NCBI GenBank assembly: GCA_029260165.1
Contig: JAJDDT010000019.1
Coordinates: forward strand, 1 to 56,996
Source: Phycisphaerae bacterium
GTDB lineage: Bacteria; Planctomycetota; Phycisphaerae; UBA1845
DNA: 56,996 bases
Direction: 5' to 3'
Position numbers and translations under genes: made by a program
Notes under the pieces: generated by a model
What the model was told of the DNA's origin: nothing
The model's input: only the letters and a program-made list of their open reading frames with translations
Database searches by the model: none
In this document: positions 15,079-28,446 of the stretch, one piece after another
How positions within the stretch are numbered: position 1 is the first letter of the stretch
How the letters are laid out: every line of letters starts with the position of its first letter

Positions 15079-16836
15079 ATGGAAAAGGATTGGATCGTCA
15101 ACCCAGCCTGGTCGGACCGGGACGTGGCGGCGGGGCGATGGGGTGTGTCGCCGCTGGTTGCGCAGGTCATGTACAATCGTGGCGTCGGACTGGCTGATGA
15201 CCATGCGGGGTATCTTTCTCCCCAACTGGCTGATCTTTTTCCGCCCGACATGTTGCCCGGATGTCGCGAAGCAGCCGTCCGTATCGCGAAAGCGTGCTGC
15301 GACGGTGAGCGGATTGTCATTTATGGTGATTATGACGTCGATGGCATGACTTCCGTCGCGATTTTGTGGCGTGTGCTGACCCTGGCGGGCGCCAACGTCA
15401 GTTTCTACATTCCGCATCGACTGGAGGAAGGCTACGGGATCAACGTTGAAGCCATTCAATCGTTGATCGCCGACGGTGCTCGGTTGATTGTCTCGGTTGA
15501 TTGTGGTGTGACGGCTGTTGAGGCTGCCCGTGTCGCGCGTGAGAGCGGCGTCGAACTGATTGTTACCGATCATCATCAAGCTGGCGCGGAACTACCGGTT
15601 GAGACGATCATGGTTCATCCCGGATTGGATGGGACCTATCCCAATCCGGATTTGTGCGGGGCGGGGGTCGCGTTCAAGCTGGCGTGGGCGATTGCCCAGG
15701 AGCTATCGGGGTCGGAGAAGGTGACCGACGCGTATCGCATTTACTTGCGCGACGCGCTGTCATTGGCTGCGTTGGGGACGATCGCCGATGTTGTGCCGCT
15801 GATTGGGGAGAACCGCATTATTGCACGACATGGATTGGCGTTGATTCCCCGCTCGCCGTTCGTCGGATTGCAAGCGTTGATCGAGTCCGCCGGTTTGGCT
15901 GGCAGCAGGGTCAGCAGTTACGACGTTGGTTTCAAATTGGCACCGCGGTTGAACGCGGTGGGTCGGATGGGACATGCTCGATTGGGGGTTGAATTGCTGA
16001 CCCGCGCGACGGCGGATCGTGCCCGTGAAATCGCGCTCTACCTGCAGGACCAAAACAGGGCCAGGCAATCCACGGAACGAAAGTTCACGATCGAAGCAAA
16101 GGAGTTGGCGGAAAAAAGCGGGATGACAAAAGATTCATCGCGGGCAATCGTGTTGGCGCGGGAAGGGTGGCATGCGGGCGTCATTGGAATCGTGGCTTCG
16201 CGCCTTGTTGATGCCTTTCATCGACCGACGGTGATGATCGCGCTCGACAACGGTTCGGGGCAGGGGTCCGCTCGCAGCGTTCCCAATTTTCACATGACCG
16301 AAGCTTTGTCAAAATGCGGTGAACACCTGCGTACATTCGGGGGGCACGCACAGGCAGCCGGCTTGAGAATTGACACCGATCGTGTCGGCGATTTTACCGA
16401 ACAATTCATCGACCATGCCAACAACACGCTCACGCATCGGGATTTGCGCGAAAAGTTGCGTCTCGATGCGGAGGTTCGATTCGGTGATCTCGATATGTCT
16501 TCGACCGAAGCCCTGCTCGGTCTGGGGCCATTCGGTCATGGTCATTCCACGCCGAGATTCACAACCGATTGGGTTGATCTGGCGGCGGAGCCTCGCGTGG
16601 TTGGAAAAACCGGATCGCACCTGCAGGCAACGTTTTCCGATGGCAGGTCGGTTCTCAAGGCCATCGCATTCGGCAAGGGCAAAATGATCGATGATCTGAA
16701 ACAGCATCGCCGCTGCAAGGTCGCGTTTGAACCAATGATCAACGAATTCAACGGACGACGGACGGTCGAAATGCAGGTCATTGACCTTCAATTTTCCGAC
16801 CTTCAATTTCCTGCAAATCGGGACAACGAAACATGA
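15079..16836 (+). CDS. recJ: Single-strand-specific 5'-3' exonuclease RecJ
   Basis: A 585-residue DHH-family nuclease for mismatch repair and recombination. Motif I is VIYGDYDVDGMTS, with metal-binding Asp residues; motif III is the DHH box in TDHHQAG. Further blocks are GAGVAFKLAW, PRLNAVGRMGHA, and the DHHA1 portion GWHAGVIGIVASRLVD and TFGGHAQAAGL. Its stop overlaps the start of the M28 peptidase gene as ATGA, so the two are translationally coupled. G versus C bias switches inside the gene near 16.2 kb, although the frame and the motifs on both sides are intact. Confidence 0.95.
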   Translation: MEKDWIVNPAWSDRDVAAGRWGVSPLVAQVMYNRGVGLADDHAGYLSPQLADLFPPDMLPGCREAAVRIAKACCDGERIVIYGDYDVDGMTSVAILWRVLTLAGANVSFYIPHRLEEGYGINVEAIQSLIADGARLIVSVDCGVTAVEAARVARESGVELIVTDHHQAGAELPVETIMVHPGLDGTYPNPDLCGAGVAFKLAWAIAQELSGSEKVTDAYRIYLRDALSLAALGTIADVVPLIGENRIIARHGLALIPRSPFVGLQALIESAGLAGSRVSSYDVGFKLAPRLNAVGRMGHARLGVELLTRATADRAREIALYLQDQNRARQSTERKFTIEAKELAEKSGMTKDSSRAIVLAREGWHAGVIGIVASRLVDAFHRPTVMIALDNGSGQGSARSVPNFHMTEALSKCGEHLRTFGGHAQAAGLRIDTDRVGDFTEQFIDHANNTLTHRDLREKLRLDAEVRFGDLDMSSTEALLGLGPFGHGHSTPRFTTDWVDLAAEPRVVGKTGSHLQATFSDGRSVLKAIAFGKGKMIDDLKQHRRCKVAFEPMINEFNGRRTVEMQVIDLQFSDLQFPANRDNET

Positions 16837-18194
16837 AACAAGCTTGGTATGTTGGCACCATGGTATTCCCGTTCCTGTTGATCGGGTGCGTCACCGGGCA
16901 GCGCGATCGGCTTGACCCGGACATTCAGGCCATGGTGCGCGACATCAATCCGGATCGGATCGAATCGCACATCAACACGCTCGTGGGTTTCGGTACGCGC
17001 AACACGATGAGTGATACCGAAAGCCCGATCCGTGGAATCGGAGCTGCCCGCCGCTGGATTCGCGATGAATTCAAACGAATATCCGCCGCCAATGGCGACC
17101 GTCTCGTCGTTGAAATGGATGGCTATCATCAGGAAACAGACGGCAAACGCATCGTCAAGCCGGTCGATATTCTCAACGTGTTGGCCACCCTCCCGGGATC
17201 GCAACCCGAGTCCAGGGAACGCGTTTATGTGGTGAGTGGCCACTACGATTCGATCTGCTCGAATCCGTCCGATTATGAGCATGACGCACCGGGTGCGAAC
17301 GATGATGCCAGCGGAGTGGCCGCCGTTCTTGAAATGGCGCGGGTCATGTCGAAATACGAATTCGACGCCACCATCGTTTTCATGGCGGTCGCTGGTGAGG
17401 AGCAGGGTCTGATGGGTTCGTCGTATCAGGCTCGAAAATCCCGTGAGCAGGGCGACAACATCGAAGGCATGTTTACCAACGACATCATCGGTAATTCCCT
17501 GTCCGCGCATGGGAAACGCGACCGCGACCATGTCCGTGTTTTTTCGGAGAACGTCCCGCTGTCAGAAACGCCGAAGCAGGCGGAGATACGCAAGCGCATC
17601 GGTAACGAGCATGATTCCGCTGCCAGACAGCTCGCCCGGTCCATTGACCGCGTGTGCGATCAATATGTGCCAGGGTTCGATGTTGTGTTGATCAATCGCC
17701 TCGATCGCTTCCTGCGCGGTGGCGATCACAAATCGTACGCGTTGGCGGGTTATCCGGGTGTTCGATTCACCGAGATGAATGAAAACTACCGCCATCAACA
17801 TCAGAATGTCCGCGTGGAAGACGGCGTCCAATACGGCGATCTGCCCGAGTTCGTCGATTTCGCCTACACCGCCAACGTCGCTCGCGTCAACGCAGCCTCC
17901 CTTGCAACACTTGCTCGCGCTCCCGCCCCTCCGAAAAATGTTCGCGTTATTGTCGCGAAACTGGCCACCGACACCACGCTCCGATGGAACGCGAACACCG
18001 AGTCGGACCTCGCGGGTTACGACATTTTGTGGCGTGAAACGACATCACCACAGTGGCAGTCGTCCAAACGTGTCGGCAGGGTTACCGAGTGCACGTTGCC
18101 CCTTTCCAAGGATAACTATATCTTTGGCGTGGCTGCGATCGACCGCGAGGGGCATCGAAGCCGAGCGGTTTACCCATTGCCCGCCAAACAGTGA
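16833..18194 (+). CDS. Secreted M28-family zinc aminopeptidase with fibronectin III domain
   Basis: A 453-residue lipoprotein (lipobox LLIGC, C19). The M28 fold carries its metal ligands at H137 (SGHYDS), D157 (GANDDASG) and the E189-E190 pair (AGEEQGLMGS), with later Asp and His ligands in the MFTNDIIG and the DHKSYALAGYPG segments. The last 90 residues (APPKNVRVIVAKL..TTLRWNANTESDLAGYDILW) form a fibronectin type III domain. It is likely an extracytoplasmic aminopeptidase that releases N-terminal residues from peptides. Start and recJ stop overlap by 4 bp. A second M28 lipoprotein with different accessory domains lies at 21354-23342. Confidence 0.9.
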   Translation: MKQAWYVGTMVFPFLLIGCVTGQRDRLDPDIQAMVRDINPDRIESHINTLVGFGTRNTMSDTESPIRGIGAARRWIRDEFKRISAANGDRLVVEMDGYHQETDGKRIVKPVDILNVLATLPGSQPESRERVYVVSGHYDSICSNPSDYEHDAPGANDDASGVAAVLEMARVMSKYEFDATIVFMAVAGEEQGLMGSSYQARKSREQGDNIEGMFTNDIIGNSLSAHGKRDRDHVRVFSENVPLSETPKQAEIRKRIGNEHDSAARQLARSIDRVCDQYVPGFDVVLINRLDRFLRGGDHKSYALAGYPGVRFTEMNENYRHQHQNVRVEDGVQYGDLPEFVDFAYTANVARVNAASLATLARAPAPPKNVRVIVAKLATDTTLRWNANTESDLAGYDILWRETTSPQWQSSKRVGRVTECTLPLSKDNYIFGVAAIDREGHRSRAVYPLPAKQ

Positions 18195-21353: not shown

Positions 21354-23342
21354 GTGAAACGACTCAACATGCACTGTTCAACGTCCATGGCACTCTTCCT
21401 GGCACTCCTCCTGGCTTTGGCAGGTTGTGAGAGCAAGACGCAGTCAATCGTCACAATGCAACATCGCGCCGCCCCGAAAACAATCGTATCCAAACCCGCC
21501 CCCGCACCGTCGGTTGCACCGGCGCCACAACCACCCCCGACACCTGTCCCGCACGCGCAGACCGTCGCAACGTCGATTCCCTCGCCCGGTGCGAAACCGC
21601 GAAGCCAGCACGATCTCAAGGTCAACCCCGACGATTTTCTGGCCCATATTGCCGTCCTGGCTGACGACGCCATGGGTGGTCGTGGTATTGGCTCGCGAGG
21701 TATTGACCAGGCCGCCGCCTACATCGCCGGGCAATTCGCGCTTCTGGGTATCGCACCCGGTGGGGACGACGGCACCTATTTCCAGGAATTCGAGGTCTCC
21801 ACCGGTGGTCGGCTCACCGATGACCACAAGTTCGATGTCACCGGCATCGAGTCCACGCCCGAGCGACGCGCCGATTTCACACCGTTCGGGTTTTCGAGCA
21901 ACGACGCATTCGACGGCGAGGTTGTTTTCGTAGGCTATGGCCTGGTCAACGACGAAAAGAATCACGACGACTACAAGGACGTGGACGTCTCTGGAAAAGT
22001 TGTTCTCATGCTCCGCCGCGAACCACCAACGTGGGCGGAGTCGGGTCGGACAACGCGGTTGGCGACATTCCAAAACAAAATCTACACCGCCAAGGAGAAG
22101 GGTGCCGCAGCTGTGCTGATCGTCAACCGAATCGCGGAAGATCGCGAGGACCGTCTCATGGGCTTCCGAGCGCAGCGTGGAGCATTTGGCCTGCCCGCGT
22201 TTCACATCACACAAAAACTGGCGGAACAAATGCTCGCCTCAGGTGGCGCTCGCAACCTGAGCGCGTTGCAGTCCGCCACCGATCAAAGCCAACCCGTCTC
22301 GACGAGTCTGGCGGGTGTTCACCTCGCCGGTCGCGCCGGCGTCGAAAAAACGGTCACACGCGAGCGCAACGTGCTCGGATTGATCCCCGGTGACGGGCCT
22401 CTCGCCGATGAATACGTCGTCATTGGTGGACACTACGATCATCTCGGCAAAGCTGCGACCATGGGCATGCTCCGCCAGGACCAGAGTGACAGCGAACCAC
22501 GCATCCACAACGGAGCTGACGACAACGCCTCGGGTACCGCAGGTGTGATCGAATCGGGTCGCATCCTCATGAGCCGCCGTCCGCTAAAACGCAGTATCAT
22601 TCTCATGGCGTTCAGCGGCGAGGAAACGGGCCTGCTCGGGAGCAAGCATTACGCCGACAACCCCGTCTTCCCGTTGGAAAACACGGTGGCCATGCTCAAC
22701 ATGGACATGATCGGCCGATTTGACGAAGAGAAAAACACCGTCCAGATTTTTGGCACCAGGGCAGCCGAAGAATTTGAAACATTGATCGCCCAACATGTCG
22801 AAGCGGTCGGCATGAATCTTCGCGGCGACGAAAGTGCGATAGGCCCAAGCGACCACACGTCGTTTTATCGGAAAGAGGTTCCGGCGATGCACATCTTCAC
22901 GGGCCTGCATCAGGACTACCACCGACCGGGCGACGACGTGGAAAAAGTCAACGCCGACGGTGGAGCACGCGTGACCGATCTCGTGGCTGCCATGGCCTAC
23001 GACATCGCTCAACGCGACAACCGCGTGACGTATCACGAAGTCAAAGCCCGTGCACAGGTGGGAAGCACCGGCAGACCACGCGTGGTGATGGGTGTGATGC
23101 CTGGTTATGCGGGCAACGATGATACCGGCCTGGTGGTTGACGGGGTTACCGATGGAGGCCCAGCCGAAAAATCCGGGATGCAGGGCGGAGACACCATCAC
23201 CCGAATCGGCGACGCCGGCGTGAAGAATATCTACGACTACATGGGTGCGTTGCGTAACAGAAAACCAGGGGACGTCATCAAGGTGATCGTTCGCAGAGAC
23301 GACAAGGATGTTGTCCTCGACATCACACTCGGCGGTAGATAA
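21354..23342 (+). CDS. Secreted M28-family peptidase with PA and PDZ domains
   Basis: A 662-residue lipoprotein. The GTG at 21354 is chosen for a GGAG 9 bases upstream; the ATG at 21369 is the alternative. Lipobox ALAGC (C25) is followed by a Pro/Ala-rich linker (about 35-75). The peptidase is split by a PA domain (about 170-300). Ligands are H360 (GGHYDHLG), D389 (NGADDNASG), E423-E424 (GEETGLLGS), then a later Asp (NMDMIGRF) and His (PSDHTSFY). A C-terminal PDZ domain spans about 570-660 (GLVVDGVTDGGPAEKSGMQG). It probably degrades or trims exported peptides. A short hairpin at 23357 separates it from the convergent TldD-like gene. Confidence 0.92.
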   Translation: MKRLNMHCSTSMALFLALLLALAGCESKTQSIVTMQHRAAPKTIVSKPAPAPSVAPAPQPPPTPVPHAQTVATSIPSPGAKPRSQHDLKVNPDDFLAHIAVLADDAMGGRGIGSRGIDQAAAYIAGQFALLGIAPGGDDGTYFQEFEVSTGGRLTDDHKFDVTGIESTPERRADFTPFGFSSNDAFDGEVVFVGYGLVNDEKNHDDYKDVDVSGKVVLMLRREPPTWAESGRTTRLATFQNKIYTAKEKGAAAVLIVNRIAEDREDRLMGFRAQRGAFGLPAFHITQKLAEQMLASGGARNLSALQSATDQSQPVSTSLAGVHLAGRAGVEKTVTRERNVLGLIPGDGPLADEYVVIGGHYDHLGKAATMGMLRQDQSDSEPRIHNGADDNASGTAGVIESGRILMSRRPLKRSIILMAFSGEETGLLGSKHYADNPVFPLENTVAMLNMDMIGRFDEEKNTVQIFGTRAAEEFETLIAQHVEAVGMNLRGDESAIGPSDHTSFYRKEVPAMHIFTGLHQDYHRPGDDVEKVNADGGARVTDLVAAMAYDIAQRDNRVTYHEVKARAQVGSTGRPRVVMGVMPGYAGNDDTGLVVDGVTDGGPAEKSGMQGGDTITRIGDAGVKNIYDYMGALRNRKPGDVIKVIVRRDDKDVVLDITLGGR

Positions 23343-23384: not shown

Positions 23385-25088
23385 TCAATCCACCTGTGTG
23401 CGTGCCACCGGATTCTCCAGAATCGGCGGCCTGTCGAAGTCGCGATCGATTTTGGCAAGGTCAAGCTCGTCGAACAGCATCGCCGGTGCGACAATGGTCG
23501 TCCCACCATTGCCGCGGGTGTTCAACACATAAGGCTTGTCACCGACCGCCAGAATCCGTTTGAATGCTTTCAGGTCGATCCGCGCGATTTCCGCGCCACG
23601 CACCAGCTCTTCCCGACCGTCCACATAAACCTTGTACATTTCCAGGGGAACCGTCGATCCGCCGCCACGAAATCGCCCACCGCCCGGATTGGAAACACTC
23701 CCCAGCGACGCAATCCGCAACGCAAAATCCAATCCCTCGTCACTCGCTGTCTCCAAAAGCTCGTCACGAAGCTCCGCCGCACTCGAGGTATTCTCTGCCG
23801 ATACGATCAAACAAGCGGAAGATGCCCGCGGAGCAAACGCCCCCCGGCCATGGCCCGTCGATTTCCCCGACGATTTCGATGGATTGCGTGACAAGACCAG
23901 TTTTTTCAGTCGTCCACCCTTCACGAGTTCCACCCGCGACGCCTTCACCCCCTGATCGTCGTAGTCATATTGACCCATCACCTGCTCGCCGTGGATCGTT
24001 TCCAGCGTGGGATCATCGACGACATCCAGGAACCGCGGCAGAATTCGTTTGCCAATCCTGCTCTCAAAATCATTCGGGTCACTGCGACTTCCCACCGGTC
24101 GCTGCCCGCCGGCAAACCGCCGCGCAAAGCTCCGCCGAAACACATTCCCCGCAGCAGCAGCCTCGAACAACACAGGACCCGTGTACGATTCCAACAGTGG
24201 TGCCTTGCCCAACTTGACCAATCGATCACACAACTCGCGACACTGGTCCGTCATTTCCGAAACCGAAGGCAGGTCCTTCAATGTACGCCGATGAATGGTG
24301 ACCGAGTCCGACAACTCCATCCCGTCCTCCGCCTGAATCGACGCAGTCACCGAAACCGTCACAAGCGAACCAGCCTGCCGTATCCGCGTTCCTTCGGTGT
24401 TCACGAGGTAATTGTTTCCCGCGGTCATCGAGACGTTGACGTTCGAATTCTTGATCTGCCCAAATTCGCGAAACACCGCCGACAACGTCGTTGCCAATGA
24501 CCGCAACGCCGCCAAATCCACGTCCACCTCGGACCGCTCCTCAAACGAAACGACCGCTTTCTCCCTGGAAAAATCGTCAGGATTGTCCTCGATCACGACA
24601 CTTTCCATAAACGCCCGCTTCCGCTCCAGGGATTCGACAACACCCTTGTAATCGCGATCCGTCATCCACCAGATCGCCTGCCGAATAGCCGTGTAGTCAT
24701 CCTCGATTGCGATGGGCGAAAATCCGCCGAACCTTCCGAACCCACCAAAGCGGTCCGCAAAGTTCGTGTTATCCAACTCGTACGAACCCACGCGCGCGTC
24801 GACGCGAAGGCGCCGGTTTCGTACCTCGCCTTCGTCCGCCACCGCCCCGAGATCCGCCGACACGCCCGCCGACGCGGTGTCCGACATCGCGTATTCAATA
24901 AAATAAGGCCTCGCCAAATCCTCGATGAGGAGCTTCTCCCTGCTTCGCTCGAGTTCATCGACCATCGCCCGCAGGACGACATCTTTCTTCATTTCTCCCG
25001 CAAGATCATCGCTCGCGCGAACAGACGACCAACTCGTTATTGCAACAACCGCCAACGTCAATATCGTGTATCTCATAAACCGCATCAT
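23385..25088 (-). CDS. Exported TldD-like protein lacking the HExxxH zinc motif
   Basis: A 567-residue protein with a signal peptide (about residues 1-25, ending near VRASD). The ATG at 25088 has GAAGGA at 6 bases. It aligns along its length with the neighbour at 25164-26873, including ARPYFIEYAMSDT, EAAAAGNVFRR, RILPRFLDVVDDPTLETI, GQYDYDDQGV and LSRNPSKSSGKSTGHGRG, as a TldD/PmbA-family protein. The HExxxH of the partner (HEIFGH) is replaced by RSFARR at residues 319-324, so the catalytic zinc cannot bind in the usual way. The pair therefore resembles cytoplasmic TldD (active) plus TldE (inactive), though exported. The gene follows its partner after 75 bp. Confidence 0.85.
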   Translation of the reverse strand: MMRFMRYTILTLAVVAITSWSSVRASDDLAGEMKKDVVLRAMVDELERSREKLLIEDLARPYFIEYAMSDTASAGVSADLGAVADEGEVRNRRLRVDARVGSYELDNTNFADRFGGFGRFGGFSPIAIEDDYTAIRQAIWWMTDRDYKGVVESLERKRAFMESVVIEDNPDDFSREKAVVSFEERSEVDVDLAALRSLATTLSAVFREFGQIKNSNVNVSMTAGNNYLVNTEGTRIRQAGSLVTVSVTASIQAEDGMELSDSVTIHRRTLKDLPSVSEMTDQCRELCDRLVKLGKAPLLESYTGPVLFEAAAAGNVFRRSFARRFAGGQRPVGSRSDPNDFESRIGKRILPRFLDVVDDPTLETIHGEQVMGQYDYDDQGVKASRVELVKGGRLKKLVLSRNPSKSSGKSTGHGRGAFAPRASSACLIVSAENTSSAAELRDELLETASDEGLDFALRIASLGSVSNPGGGRFRGGGSTVPLEMYKVYVDGREELVRGAEIARIDLKAFKRILAVGDKPYVLNTRGNGGTTIVAPAMLFDELDLAKIDRDFDRPPILENPVARTQVD

Positions 25089-25163
25089 CGGGGTTCCTTC
25101 ATCTGTCTCAAAACCAGTCATTGGATTCGTCACGCACGATTGGGTCCGGTGAAATCCTTGGGT

Positions 25164-26873
25164 CTATTTTGAACCCAGGGCGACCGGTGCCTTCAAAATC
25201 GGAGGCCTGTCCTGGGCTTTCTGTTTCTTTTCGATCTCAATCTGCTCGACCAGAATGCTCGGCGAAATCGCCGATACCGGAACGCTGCCGGACTCCGCAC
25301 CGCAGATACCATTGAACACGCCCGCATCGTCCGCCGTCGCCAAAATCCTTGAAAAACAGGTCAACGGCGTCCCAACCACATCAACGCCACGCACCAACTC
25401 GTCCTCCCGACCATCGGCATACACCCGGTAAACGATGATCGGCAACACCTTGAATGCTTGCGGACCTCGCCGACGCGTCGTGGTGAATCCACCGGAAATG
25501 TCCTCGAAAATCAGCCCGTAGTCCTTGCCTTGTTTCTTACACTCTCCGATGAGCATCTTGCGAAGCTCGGCAAATGGCACCTGTTTCGTCGATTCAATAA
25601 TCAGATTTCCCTGACGCGCGACGATGGGCAAACCGGGTTGACGACGACCATGACCATTCGATTTGGTAAACCCGCGCGTCGGCGATCGCGACAACAAAAA
25701 CGTCTGCAGAATTCCGTCATCAACCAAATGCACCGCCTGACCCTGGATGCACTCCTCGTCGTAGAGGTAGTGGCCATTCAACTCAATCCGGCCAAACTTC
25801 TTCAGCGACGGATCATCCGTCACGCTCAAAAACGTCGGCAACACTTCCTTTCCTATCTTCTTGGCAAACGTCTGACCCTCATCAACATCCTTCTGCCGAT
25901 GCCCCTCGATGCGATGCCCGAAAATCTCGTGGAAAAACACCCCGCTCGCGCGATTCATGAAAATGGCCGGACCCGTGTACGGTTCCACCACCGGGGCTTC
26001 CCGTAGCGCTTCCAGTTCCCCGATCAATTGCTTAACCGCCGCCGATACCGTTGCGTCATCCGGCAATCCATCGGGTGAATGAGCGTCAAACGACGAATAT
26101 TGAAACAATTCCATCCCGTCATCGGCAATGGTCGACGCCTGGATTCCAACGCGCCACCAACCCCGACCAAACTGCAGTCGGGACGCCTCGGAATTGACCG
26201 CCAAACGATTCGTCACCCGACCCGTCAGCGTCACGCTCGAATTGTAAATGTTCGGATGGTCGCGAAACGCTTGTGACCACTTCTTAACACGCTTTCCCCA
26301 CAATCCGCGATCCACCGACTGGTCAGCCAACGCCCCGATGAACACCTCCGAATCCTCGCGAGAGAAATCGTCCGACAGATCCTCTTCCTCAACCTTGACC
26401 TTGATGTTTGCCCTGACCTGCGCCAAACGCTTCACCGCCTCCTTGAATGCCCTGTCCGTCGAAAGCCACAACGCATGTCGCGTCGCCAATGGATCACCGT
26501 TCAACGGCAACGACGTTCGACCACCGAACATGCCCGGCCGACCACCAAACCCCTGTCCACGAATCTGGTGCGAATTGTCCATCGAGTAGTCACCGCAACG
26601 CACGTCGGCGTCCAGCAACCGGTTGTGCGAATCGTTGTCATAAATCAACGCACCCAGCGTCGCGCCAATCGACACCGTCTGCTCATCGGTCACCGCGTAC
26701 TGCAGGAAATAAGGCTTGCTGCCGTCCGGCGTTTCGAGCTTCTCCATGGACAGCTTCAATTCGCTCTCCATAAGACCCAACAAAGGATGTTCGTCCGCCG
26801 CCTCAGCCACCCCCACGCTCAGGAGGCCCACCACCAACAACAAACCCAACCACAACCCTGGTCGATTCAACAT
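25164..26873 (-). CDS. Exported TldD-family metallopeptidase with intact HExxxH
   Basis: A 569-residue protein with an N-terminal signal (WLGLLLVVGLLSVGVAEAA). The ATG at 26873 follows GAGGTG at 5 bases. Domain 1 (about residues 30-300) is the TldD N-terminal fold. The zinc motif is H315-E316-I-F-G-H320 followed by RIEGHRQKD, in the TldD context GVFFHE. C-terminal blocks are KEVLPTFLSVTDDPSLKKFG, GHYLYDEECIQGQ and TFLLSRSPTRGFTKSNGHGR, with final LVRGVDVVGTPLTCFSRILA. TldD normally acts in the cytoplasm with TldE on peptides such as modified RiPP precursors; here both partners carry export signals. Substrate unknown. Confidence 0.9.
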   Translation of the reverse strand: MLNRPGLWLGLLLVVGLLSVGVAEAADEHPLLGLMESELKLSMEKLETPDGSKPYFLQYAVTDEQTVSIGATLGALIYDNDSHNRLLDADVRCGDYSMDNSHQIRGQGFGGRPGMFGGRTSLPLNGDPLATRHALWLSTDRAFKEAVKRLAQVRANIKVKVEEEDLSDDFSREDSEVFIGALADQSVDRGLWGKRVKKWSQAFRDHPNIYNSSVTLTGRVTNRLAVNSEASRLQFGRGWWRVGIQASTIADDGMELFQYSSFDAHSPDGLPDDATVSAAVKQLIGELEALREAPVVEPYTGPAIFMNRASGVFFHEIFGHRIEGHRQKDVDEGQTFAKKIGKEVLPTFLSVTDDPSLKKFGRIELNGHYLYDEECIQGQAVHLVDDGILQTFLLSRSPTRGFTKSNGHGRRQPGLPIVARQGNLIIESTKQVPFAELRKMLIGECKKQGKDYGLIFEDISGGFTTTRRRGPQAFKVLPIIVYRVYADGREDELVRGVDVVGTPLTCFSRILATADDAGVFNGICGAESGSVPVSAISPSILVEQIEIEKKQKAQDRPPILKAPVALGSK

Positions 26874-27034: not shown

Positions 27035-27811
27035 TTACGGTTTATCCACCGGAATGTGAAATGCGTCCAGAAGATACGCCCGATCCAGCCGTGAAACCTC
27101 GTAGAGAATCAGTGACTCGATCTGACGCGAATAAAGATTCAGACCACTGCCCGACGGCAACGACTGACCCTTGTGCGTTTCTGAATCGACAAACACGACG
27201 ACTTCCTCGCCATCCACCTTCGCTAACAGATAAGTCGTTTTGTCCGAAATGATGCTCGCATAGGACATCCCGATCGATTGGATATTCGACGGCAGGTTTC
27301 CCAAAACCAGCGGTTGCCCAAAACGCTTCTCAAACCTTCCGGAAAACTCCGCATCGTCCCTGCAAACCCACAGAGGCTCAAACCCGCGCGCAACCTCCGT
27401 CCGATACGCACCCGCCATCGTGCTGTAGTCCGCTGCCACGTTCGATTCCGAAAAACGCGCAAACCGAACCCCCGCAAAAACGCAAATCCCAATCGCGGCA
27501 GCCAACCCCAACCACTGACGTAGCGGTGAATGTTTCGTCCCGGCAGAACCGGCCGTCGGAACGACACGCAAATCAGTCGCATCAGCCTCGGTTTCCACGG
27601 TCGCCCAATCCGGTAATCGCGACATCAACCGCTCCGTCGGCGGCGGGGGAAACAAACGGCGGATCGACTCGTCAATCGTCCGCTGCTTTTCCACCTCAGC
27701 CATCAACCCCGGATTGTGATCCAGCTCCCGCTCGAACGCCTCACGCTCAACTGCGTCGAGCTGATCATCCAGATACGCGTCCAGACTGTCCGATTTTTCC
27801 TCAGTCGTCAT
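27035..27811 (-). CDS. Anti-sigma factor (membrane-anchored) without the zinc-binding HxxxCxxC
   Basis: A 258-residue protein. Residues 8-50 form the helical N-terminal anti-sigma domain (LDAYLDDQLDAVEREAFERE), but where the ZAS family has HxxxCxxC this protein reads LDHNPGLMAEVEK, with H32 kept and both Cys absent. One membrane segment at about 100-117 is followed by a periplasmic domain of 140 residues (about 118-258) including an aromatic-rich part. It starts inside the sigma gene: ATGA overlap of 4 bp. It would hold the sigma factor at the membrane and release it on an extracytoplasmic signal. The two TldD-like genes lie downstream on the same strand. Confidence 0.8.
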   Translation of the reverse strand: MTTEEKSDSLDAYLDDQLDAVEREAFERELDHNPGLMAEVEKQRTIDESIRRLFPPPPTERLMSRLPDWATVETEADATDLRVVPTAGSAGTKHSPLRQWLGLAAAIGICVFAGVRFARFSESNVAADYSTMAGAYRTEVARGFEPLWVCRDDAEFSGRFEKRFGQPLVLGNLPSNIQSIGMSYASIISDKTTYLLAKVDGEEVVVFVDSETHKGQSLPSGSGLNLYSRQIESLILYEVSRLDRAYLLDAFHIPVDKP

Positions 27812-28446
27812 CGCTTTTCTCTCGCCCCGCTTCGTTCGGGACCATCGTCACCCGCCCCCGAAAGCCGCTGCCGCAACAAACGTCGTGTCCGGTGGACGTG
27901 GCTCATCGCTGTCCCCGCCGGTATGCCCAGCAACTCCGCGATCCGGGCGTAATCCATTCCCTCCAGCGTTCGGAGCAACAGACACGCCCGCGCCACCTCA
28001 CCCACGTCCTCCAACGCCTCACGCATCGCATCGTCGAGTCCAATACCCGATTCGACCGCGCTGCTCATTGACACCGTTCGACCTCTGTCAGAAGCCAGTT
28101 GCTCGACGACCTGGCTGTCCAGTCCCGCGGGACGACGCCTCGATTCCCTCCGACCACGGTTCAGCGCGACGAAACGCACCATCTGACCCATCCACGCCGC
28201 AAATCGCGTCCCCCGCTCGAATTGATCCAGTTTCCCGAGTGCCAAAACCGCCGCCTCCTGAACAACATCCTCCGCCAGGCTTGCGTCACCAAGCACCCCG
28301 ACCGCCACGCCCCAAAGCGCACGCGCCGACGCCCGATACTCGATCGCAAACTCAGCCGGACTCAAAGGCTCCGAACTCCGGATCATTGAATTCGATCCAC
28401 TGGCTTGCGACTCCTTCTCGCCGATTTGTCGCTCCCACTCGATCAC
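27808..28446 (-). CDS. ECF-type RNA polymerase sigma factor
   Basis: A 212-residue factor from the GTG at 28446; an ATG at 28386 (192 residues) is an equally possible start and neither has a strong ribosome binding site. Region 2 is seen as FAIEYRASARALWGVAVGVL, DASLAEDVVQEAAVLALGKL and TRFAAWMGQMVRFVALNR (the -10 recognition helix). Region 4 is ARIAELLGIPAGTAMSHVHR, with the helix-turn-helix for the -35 box. Its overlap with the anti-sigma gene indicates one transcript. The next genes downstream on that strand are the exported TldD-like pair, likely targets, although I could not identify an ECF promoter in front of them. Confidence 0.92.
   Translation of the reverse strand: MIEWERQIGEKESQASGSNSMIRSSEPLSPAEFAIEYRASARALWGVAVGVLGDASLAEDVVQEAAVLALGKLDQFERGTRFAAWMGQMVRFVALNRGRRESRRRPAGLDSQVVEQLASDRGRTVSMSSAVESGIGLDDAMREALEDVGEVARACLLLRTLEGMDYARIAELLGIPAGTAMSHVHRTRRLLRQRLSGAGDDGPERSGAREKR

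Follow-up and report, generated by a model that had tools for sequence, protein, structure and literature searches.

Two adjacent TldD-like genes, one with and one without the HExxxH motif

The window analysed here is the whole of contig JAJDDT010000019.1 (56,996 nucleotides) from the Phycisphaerae bacterium assembly GCA_029260165.1, a member of the Planctomycetota. On its reverse strand lie two neighbouring genes for TldD-like chains, which we call active and inactive according to whether they keep or have lost the HExxxH metal motif; both start with a signal-peptide-like sequence, and their features are collected in Table 1. A reading made from the sequence alone had described them as two adjacent paralogues of TldD layout. 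Both open reading frames (ORFs) are indeed real, and Pfam finds the domain PF19289 (PmbA_TldD_3rd) in each, at 92.2 bits in the active and 69.6 bits in the inactive chain (cut-off 22). The active ORF was confirmed with its start at ATG 26873. The inactive gene probably begins at ATG 25088, which follows a ribosome-binding-like GAAGGA and is separated from the active-gene stop by 75 bases; an in-frame GTG is found further upstream, at 25133. The sequence-only reading had numbered the HEIFGH residues correctly. At the same site of the inactive chain it had placed RSFARR: the loss of the ligands stands, but the residues in register are RRSFAR, one residue earlier. The inactive chain also lacks a cysteine at the position matching Cys524.

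Table 1. Features of the exported TldD-like pair in the window
Feature	Position	Strand	Basis
Active chain, TldD-fold metallopeptidase-like, 569 aa	25164..26873	(-)	ORF, PF19289, PDB sequence match, structure match
Signal peptide of active chain, 25 aa, ending AEA|AD (predicted)	26799..26873	(-)	Read from sequence
HEIFGH metal/catalytic motif (H315, E316, H320; residues 315-320)	25914..25931	(-)	Aligns with E. coli TldD HEAVGH (262-267)
Cys524, predicted third metal ligand, within NGICGAES	25302..25304	(-)	Aligns with E. coli TldD Cys454
Inactive chain, pseudoenzyme paralogue, 567 aa from ATG 25088	23385..25088	(-)	ORF, PF19289, PF19290
Signal peptide of inactive chain, 25 aa, ending VRA|SD (predicted)	25014..25088	(-)	Read from sequence
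RRSFAR, in register with HEIFGH, without metal ligands	24120..24137	(-)	Alignment

BLAST aligns the two chains with each other at about 33% identity (259-271 bits), and a PF19289 search of the whole genome (119 contigs, 4.43 Mb, completeness given as 100%) returned no protein beyond these two. E. coli TldD is the top PDB sequence match of the active chain (E 3.2e-9). Other family profiles fit less closely: the central domain PF19290 is matched by the inactive chain only, just over its cut-off (21.9 against 20.9 bits), the first-domain profile PF01523 matches neither chain in Pfam, and the TldD/PmbA models of NCBIfam stay far under cut-off, NF040952 scoring 59 bits on the active chain (cut-off 635) and 40.3 bits on the inactive one. 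Since both chains match the TldD/PmbA Pfam domain, the fold itself is already known. With PF19289 over cut-off in each, and HExxxH and the cysteine in the actives, we assign both to the TldD/PmbA fold of family M103, the MEROPS label that TldD/TldE bear in the excerpted text of PMC10885120.

Distribution of the pair and retention of its motifs

We searched the window's genome and 39 relatives with PF19289. Matches were obtained in 31 of the 39, and the pattern of hits indicates this particular pair in 24, that is, in 20 of 23 relatives of the same family and in 4 of the 16 others of the order, with six genomes carrying two copies. From 23 of the carriers we fetched 28 pairs, leaving out the 24th (G020), whose two genes are on separate contigs. 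All 28 are arranged alike, the active gene being followed on its own strand by the inactive gene; the inactive gene of L050 is cut by a contig end. In L048:7642-9336 (one contig with L101) the active gene is broken into two ORFs, through sequencing error or decay, and this gene was left out of alignments and counts.

Scanning species genomes with a profile of the active chain revealed at least 514 loci with a relative. The best 80 of these, many of them on the same contigs as the 28 fetched pairs, are the named loci referred to below. Their titles are mostly of Planctomycetota (including Phycisphaerae) and Acidobacteria, then of Verrucomicrobia, Aminicenantes, Zixibacteria, Cloacimonadota, Eisenbacteria, Calditrichaeota and Gemmatimonadota; single Gammaproteobacteria, Alphaproteobacteria, Cyanobacteria and Archangium titles belong to metagenome-assembled genomes and may be misnamed or misbinned. 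An inactive gene lies downstream of the active one in 74 of the 80, mostly overlapping it or at most 140 bases away when frames are measured stop to stop (265 bases in L154, 789 in L097). In the remaining six the genes are fused (L125, L148), the partner would fall off the contig (L104, L110), or no downstream partner is present (L107, L109). The last two have none within about 6 kb downstream, yet both genomes hold an inactive-type gene elsewhere, one on another contig (L172) and one on the contig of its active gene, at a distance of about 9.5 kb (L176). An oddity of one genome is ruled out by the pairs in relatives and in the named loci. No relative turned up when viral contigs were scanned with the active chain. 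The matches in 31 plasmid records are distant: identity stays below 60% throughout, and 80% coverage of the query is never reached.

The two chains have fared very differently at the metal site. After removal of shortened chains and near-copies, HE[IV]FGH and the cysteine motif are found in 102 of 102 distinct full-length active chains, while neither HExxxH nor the cysteine motif is found in any of 90 distinct full-length inactive chains. Mean column identity, in 28-row alignments, is 68% for the actives and 54% for the inactives.

Signal-peptide-like N-termini in both chains

To the eye, both N-termini of the window's pair look like classical signal peptides. We extended this to the relatives with a home-made rule that looks for a positive n-region, a 10-residue hydrophobic core, and small residues or a lipobox. 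Among the active chains of the named loci 67 of 77 passed, and among the inactive ones 70 of 74, two fusions being counted as misses because there the rule was applied to the other half or to a contig end. As a control we applied the rule to a segment from inside these proteins, where 1 of 79 active and 2 of 70 inactive chains passed; it was passed by none of nine TldE-like partners and none of six solo relatives (both described below). Signal-peptide-like N-termini in both chains thus appear to exceed chance. The rule is no general test of export, since only 2 of 8 actives of the twin-arginine translocation (Tat) type described below pass it. If both chains are exported, the pair would work outside the cytoplasm.

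A clade separate from TldD and TldE

A quick tree, from which the truncated L050 inactive chain was left out, divides the family into three subclades. In all 27 complete pairs of the window's order the active and inactive chains fall in matching subclades, and the pairs therefore appear to have been copied as units. To place the pair relative to TldD and TldE we used a tree of 45 rows (13 of 58 having been thinned out). The pair, together with a solo TldD-like subfamily of Planctomycetota, forms one side of a branch with support 100/100, apart from the TldD-like and TldE-like rows, and within this tree the actives and the inactives are each grouped at 100/100. Under the approximately unbiased (AU) test, forcing the inactives with TldE is rejected at a cost of 47 log units (p 0.0014), as is forcing the actives and solos with TldD (cost 47 log units, p 0.0008). 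Because of the former result the dead chain is probably not TldE under the tree model used. The dead subunit would instead have arisen by duplication inside the pair clade, or in an ancestor shared with the solo subfamily. A true TldE orthologue with a mispredicted signal was likewise rejected, by the signal-rule counts and their controls, the tree and the AU test, with the caveat of long branches.

Natural fusions and predicted structure

Three loci encode the active and inactive chains in a single frame: L125 (titled Acidobacteria), L148 (Eisenbacteria) and L165 (from the window's phylum). The halves are joined by a short linker and the second signal peptide is absent; L125 begins at a contig end. 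In the tree the halves sort into the active and inactive clades, and since in each of the three fusions they adjoin different neighbours, at three places in the tree, the evidence points to three independent origins. We consider these fusions the strongest sequence evidence that the two chains may work together.

We also predicted structures with AlphaFold. The window's pair was folded as one chain of 1137 residues, with the stop read as glycine and an input of 32 rows, 16 of them with both chains, giving a mean predicted local distance difference test (pLDDT) of 86, with low values in short loops and in the linker that bears the second signal peptide. For L148, a natural fusion, the pLDDT was 87. 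The predicted template modelling score (pTM) is 0.83 in both models, each of which is a single-chain fold. A pTM this high for two domains of equal size suggests a defined arrangement. These two folds and the three fusions suggest that the chains may form one complex. Compared with known structures, the active half matches E. coli TldD (5njc_C) with a VIA Z of 38.0 and a root-mean-square deviation of 3.0 over 443 residues at 16% identity. The alignment spans model residues 1..526, the N-terminal half included, and the listed TldD/TldE matches are all on the active half. Matches to major histocompatibility complex (MHC)-like and capping-protein structures (Z of 6.1 or less) were set aside as common arrangements.

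Comparison with known TldD-like systems

The closest well-described system is E. coli TldD/TldE (PmbA). In the excerpted text of Ghilarov et al. (2017; PMC5810440), the metal-binding residues of TldD are those of the HEAVGH motif and Cys454, TldE has lost the ligands, and D272 and K456 are said to tether the TldD clamp. The exported pair resembles this system in that its active chain follows the TldD fold from end to end, and in having HExxxH and a distant cysteine in one chain and none in the partner. It differs in that its genes are adjacent, both chains have signal-peptide-like N-termini, PF01523 is not matched and the AU test rejects the dead chain as a TldE orthologue. In the alignment, moreover, D272 is replaced by His and K456 by Ala in the active chain, which suggests that the clamp is held differently.

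A second system, of the Tat type, occurs in the same order (L060-L068) and also consists of an active TldD-like chain and a TldE-like partner, their genes being adjacent in six genomes (G003, G009, G010, G013, G019, G021) and apart in three (G016, G026, G036). Unlike the exported pair it has classical Pfam domains, as seen in L061, and its active chain starts with a twin-arginine and lipobox-like sequence (Pfam TAT_signal is under cut-off in the example, L061:1629-4667), while its partner has no signal by our rule. Perhaps the partner binds the active chain and crosses with it by the Tat route. One genome of the order has yet another TldD-like pair, in which the motif reads HEAFGH and the partner is strongly diverged (L069, G028:C151).

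The solo subfamily (L166-L171) comprises the nearest kin of the exported pair and can be aligned along the pair's profile; its members have HEA[ILM]GH and a cysteine before (G/V/Y)AESG. Unlike the pair, each is a single gene, with no inactive-type gene in the fetched stretches and no signal by our rule. These proteins are apparently cytoplasmic and active-only, and possibly homodimeric. A search of the open-licence PubMed Central literature found no paper on exported TldD pairs.

Gene neighbourhood

Directly upstream of the active gene and on the same strand, the window encodes an extracytoplasmic function (ECF) sigma factor and an anti-sigma-like protein (27035-28446, minus strand), and near the pair, on the plus strand, it encodes two peptidases of family M28, of which one has PA and PDZ domains (16833-18194 and 21372-23342). 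A functional unit of the pair with the upstream sigma/anti-sigma genes or the downstream M28-PDZ peptidase was rejected, the synteny being found in a same-genus genome only (L032 and L075, which are one contig); four other loci show weak family-level matches to some of the neighbours. Elsewhere, of the 79 loci that have flanking ORFs, 14 have a related LptF/LptG-type ORF downstream of the pair, and all 14 carry titles of Acidobacteria groups. Its distance from the end of the inactive gene is no more than about 430 bases in 13 of them; Pfam was run on two of these ORFs. In L133:7163-9520 the protein is a single LptF/LptG-type chain of 786 residues with two matched stretches. Such a neighbour fits an envelope setting, no more. 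Five loci (L092, L093, L094, L097, L117) have near the pair a related ORF that resembles a PP-loop ATP-binding protein, which by eye we take to be LarE-like; Pfam, on L117, gave QueC/NAD synthase below cut-off only. Promoter-like sites (3 against a shuffled mean of 1.6, s.d. 1.3) and terminator-like sites (9 against 6.3, s.d. 2.8) are near chance.

Discussion

We think it rather probable that the two genes encode a Sec-exported, extracytoplasmic metallopeptidase, a heterodimer of the TldD/TldE kind whose dead subunit arose independently; its metal binding, heterodimeric state, activity and substrates are what we infer. It is well supported both as a pair and as a clade of its own, and we regard it as a real and widespread variant of the TldD/TldE design. 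Both chains would be exported through Sec and, by analogy with TldD/TldE, would fold around a hollow core. The active chain would bind one metal via H315, H320 and Cys524, with E316 as general base, and the ligand-free inactive chain would close the hollow chamber, in such a way that only unfolded peptides could reach the site. Unfolded peptide ends would enter and be clipped, and the likely job would be the periplasmic clearing or trimming of unfolded peptides. The pair would constitute its own clade, in which the dead subunit came from duplication and not from TldE.

Much of what the sequence-only reading had proposed is supported. Its signal peptides on both chains agree with the outcome of our rule in most relatives as against the controls, and its extracytoplasmic counterpart of TldD/TldE is supported. 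The pair recurs among relatives, in all 28 fetched pairs and, counting the two fusions beside the 74 linked pairs, throughout most of the named loci, and the phylogeny speaks against the inactive chain being TldE, subject to the long branches. Its idea that a TldD duplicate took over the inactive role holds as to duplication, but the source was probably an ancestor of the separate clade and not TldD itself. Binding between the chains, which it had proposed to predict, is suggested by the single-chain models and the fusions.

Several observations weigh against this interpretation. Both pTM values come from single-chain folds, and the clamp-tethering residues of E. coli TldD are altered in the active chain. 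Forcing the actives with the solos costs 2.6 log units and is not rejected by the AU test (p 0.24), and active and inactive chains as mutual closest kin have a support of only 83/73. The branches of the tree are long (2.72 changes per site for E. coli TldE), a property shared by the AU test. The top PDB match of the inactive profile is TldE/PmbA (1e-6), not TldD; we read this as the loss of the same residues, and the long branches leave doubt. No conserved neighbour names a substrate, and the window's own neighbours are syntenic only within the genus. Finally, since only 10 of 293 other genomes drawn from the phylum give strong active-type matches (>700 bits), the pair has a patchy distribution beyond the window's family.

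Among other explanations, the one that survives best, though we hold it unlikely, is that there is no heterodimer at all: each chain would be homodimeric, and the inactive one a separate binding or inhibitory protein. TldE alone is homodimeric in crystals and a Sulfolobus TldD homodimer is reported to be active, according to the excerpted text of PMC5810440, and an active-only solo subfamily does exist in Planctomycetota; the near-universal linkage of the two genes, the three fusions, the matching subclades and the single-chain models with a pTM of 0.83 weigh against homodimers. Slightly less credible still is a complex acting as a non-peptidase hydrolase, an N-deacetylase or amidase, on the envelope or on an exported small molecule. 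Such a role could go with clamp residues that differ from those of TldD, but the metal ligands and general base are kept in all 102 actives, the model follows TldD along its length, and among the clustered loci no biosynthetic neighbour is shared between phyla. Least probable is that the chains are divergent exported orthologues of TldD and TldE, alike through co-evolution or shared export, as the top PDB sequence matches (TldD for the active, TldE/PmbA for the inactive chain) would have it, because the chains are far nearer to each other than either is to TldD or TldE, they lie in a fully supported clade apart from both, the constrained trees are rejected, and six relatives (G003, G009, G010, G013, G016, G019) carry the pair in addition to a second TldD/TldE-like set, whose classical Pfam domains were checked for one.

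Returning to the exported heterodimer with an independently derived dead subunit, a broader proposal, to which we give even chances, is that the chamber of one live and one dead TldD/E chain evolved twice, once as cytoplasmic TldD/TldE and once in a separate, multi-phylum exported lineage. The latter would be a hitherto unrecognised periplasmic 'pencil sharpener' for unfolded peptides, fused into one chain at least three times, and the solo relatives may resemble its one-gene ancestor. The general function of TldD/TldE, a conserved protease, is said in the excerpted text of PMC5810440 to remain elusive. An exported and independently derived active/dead pair, if true, would be a natural repeat of the TldD/TldE design in another compartment, and one would ask which peptides of the envelope depend on it. 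What a dead subunit is used for could be tested by comparing the two origins and the natural single-chain fusions. Our results also indicate that proteins matched only by a general Pfam domain can hide a distinct exported clade.

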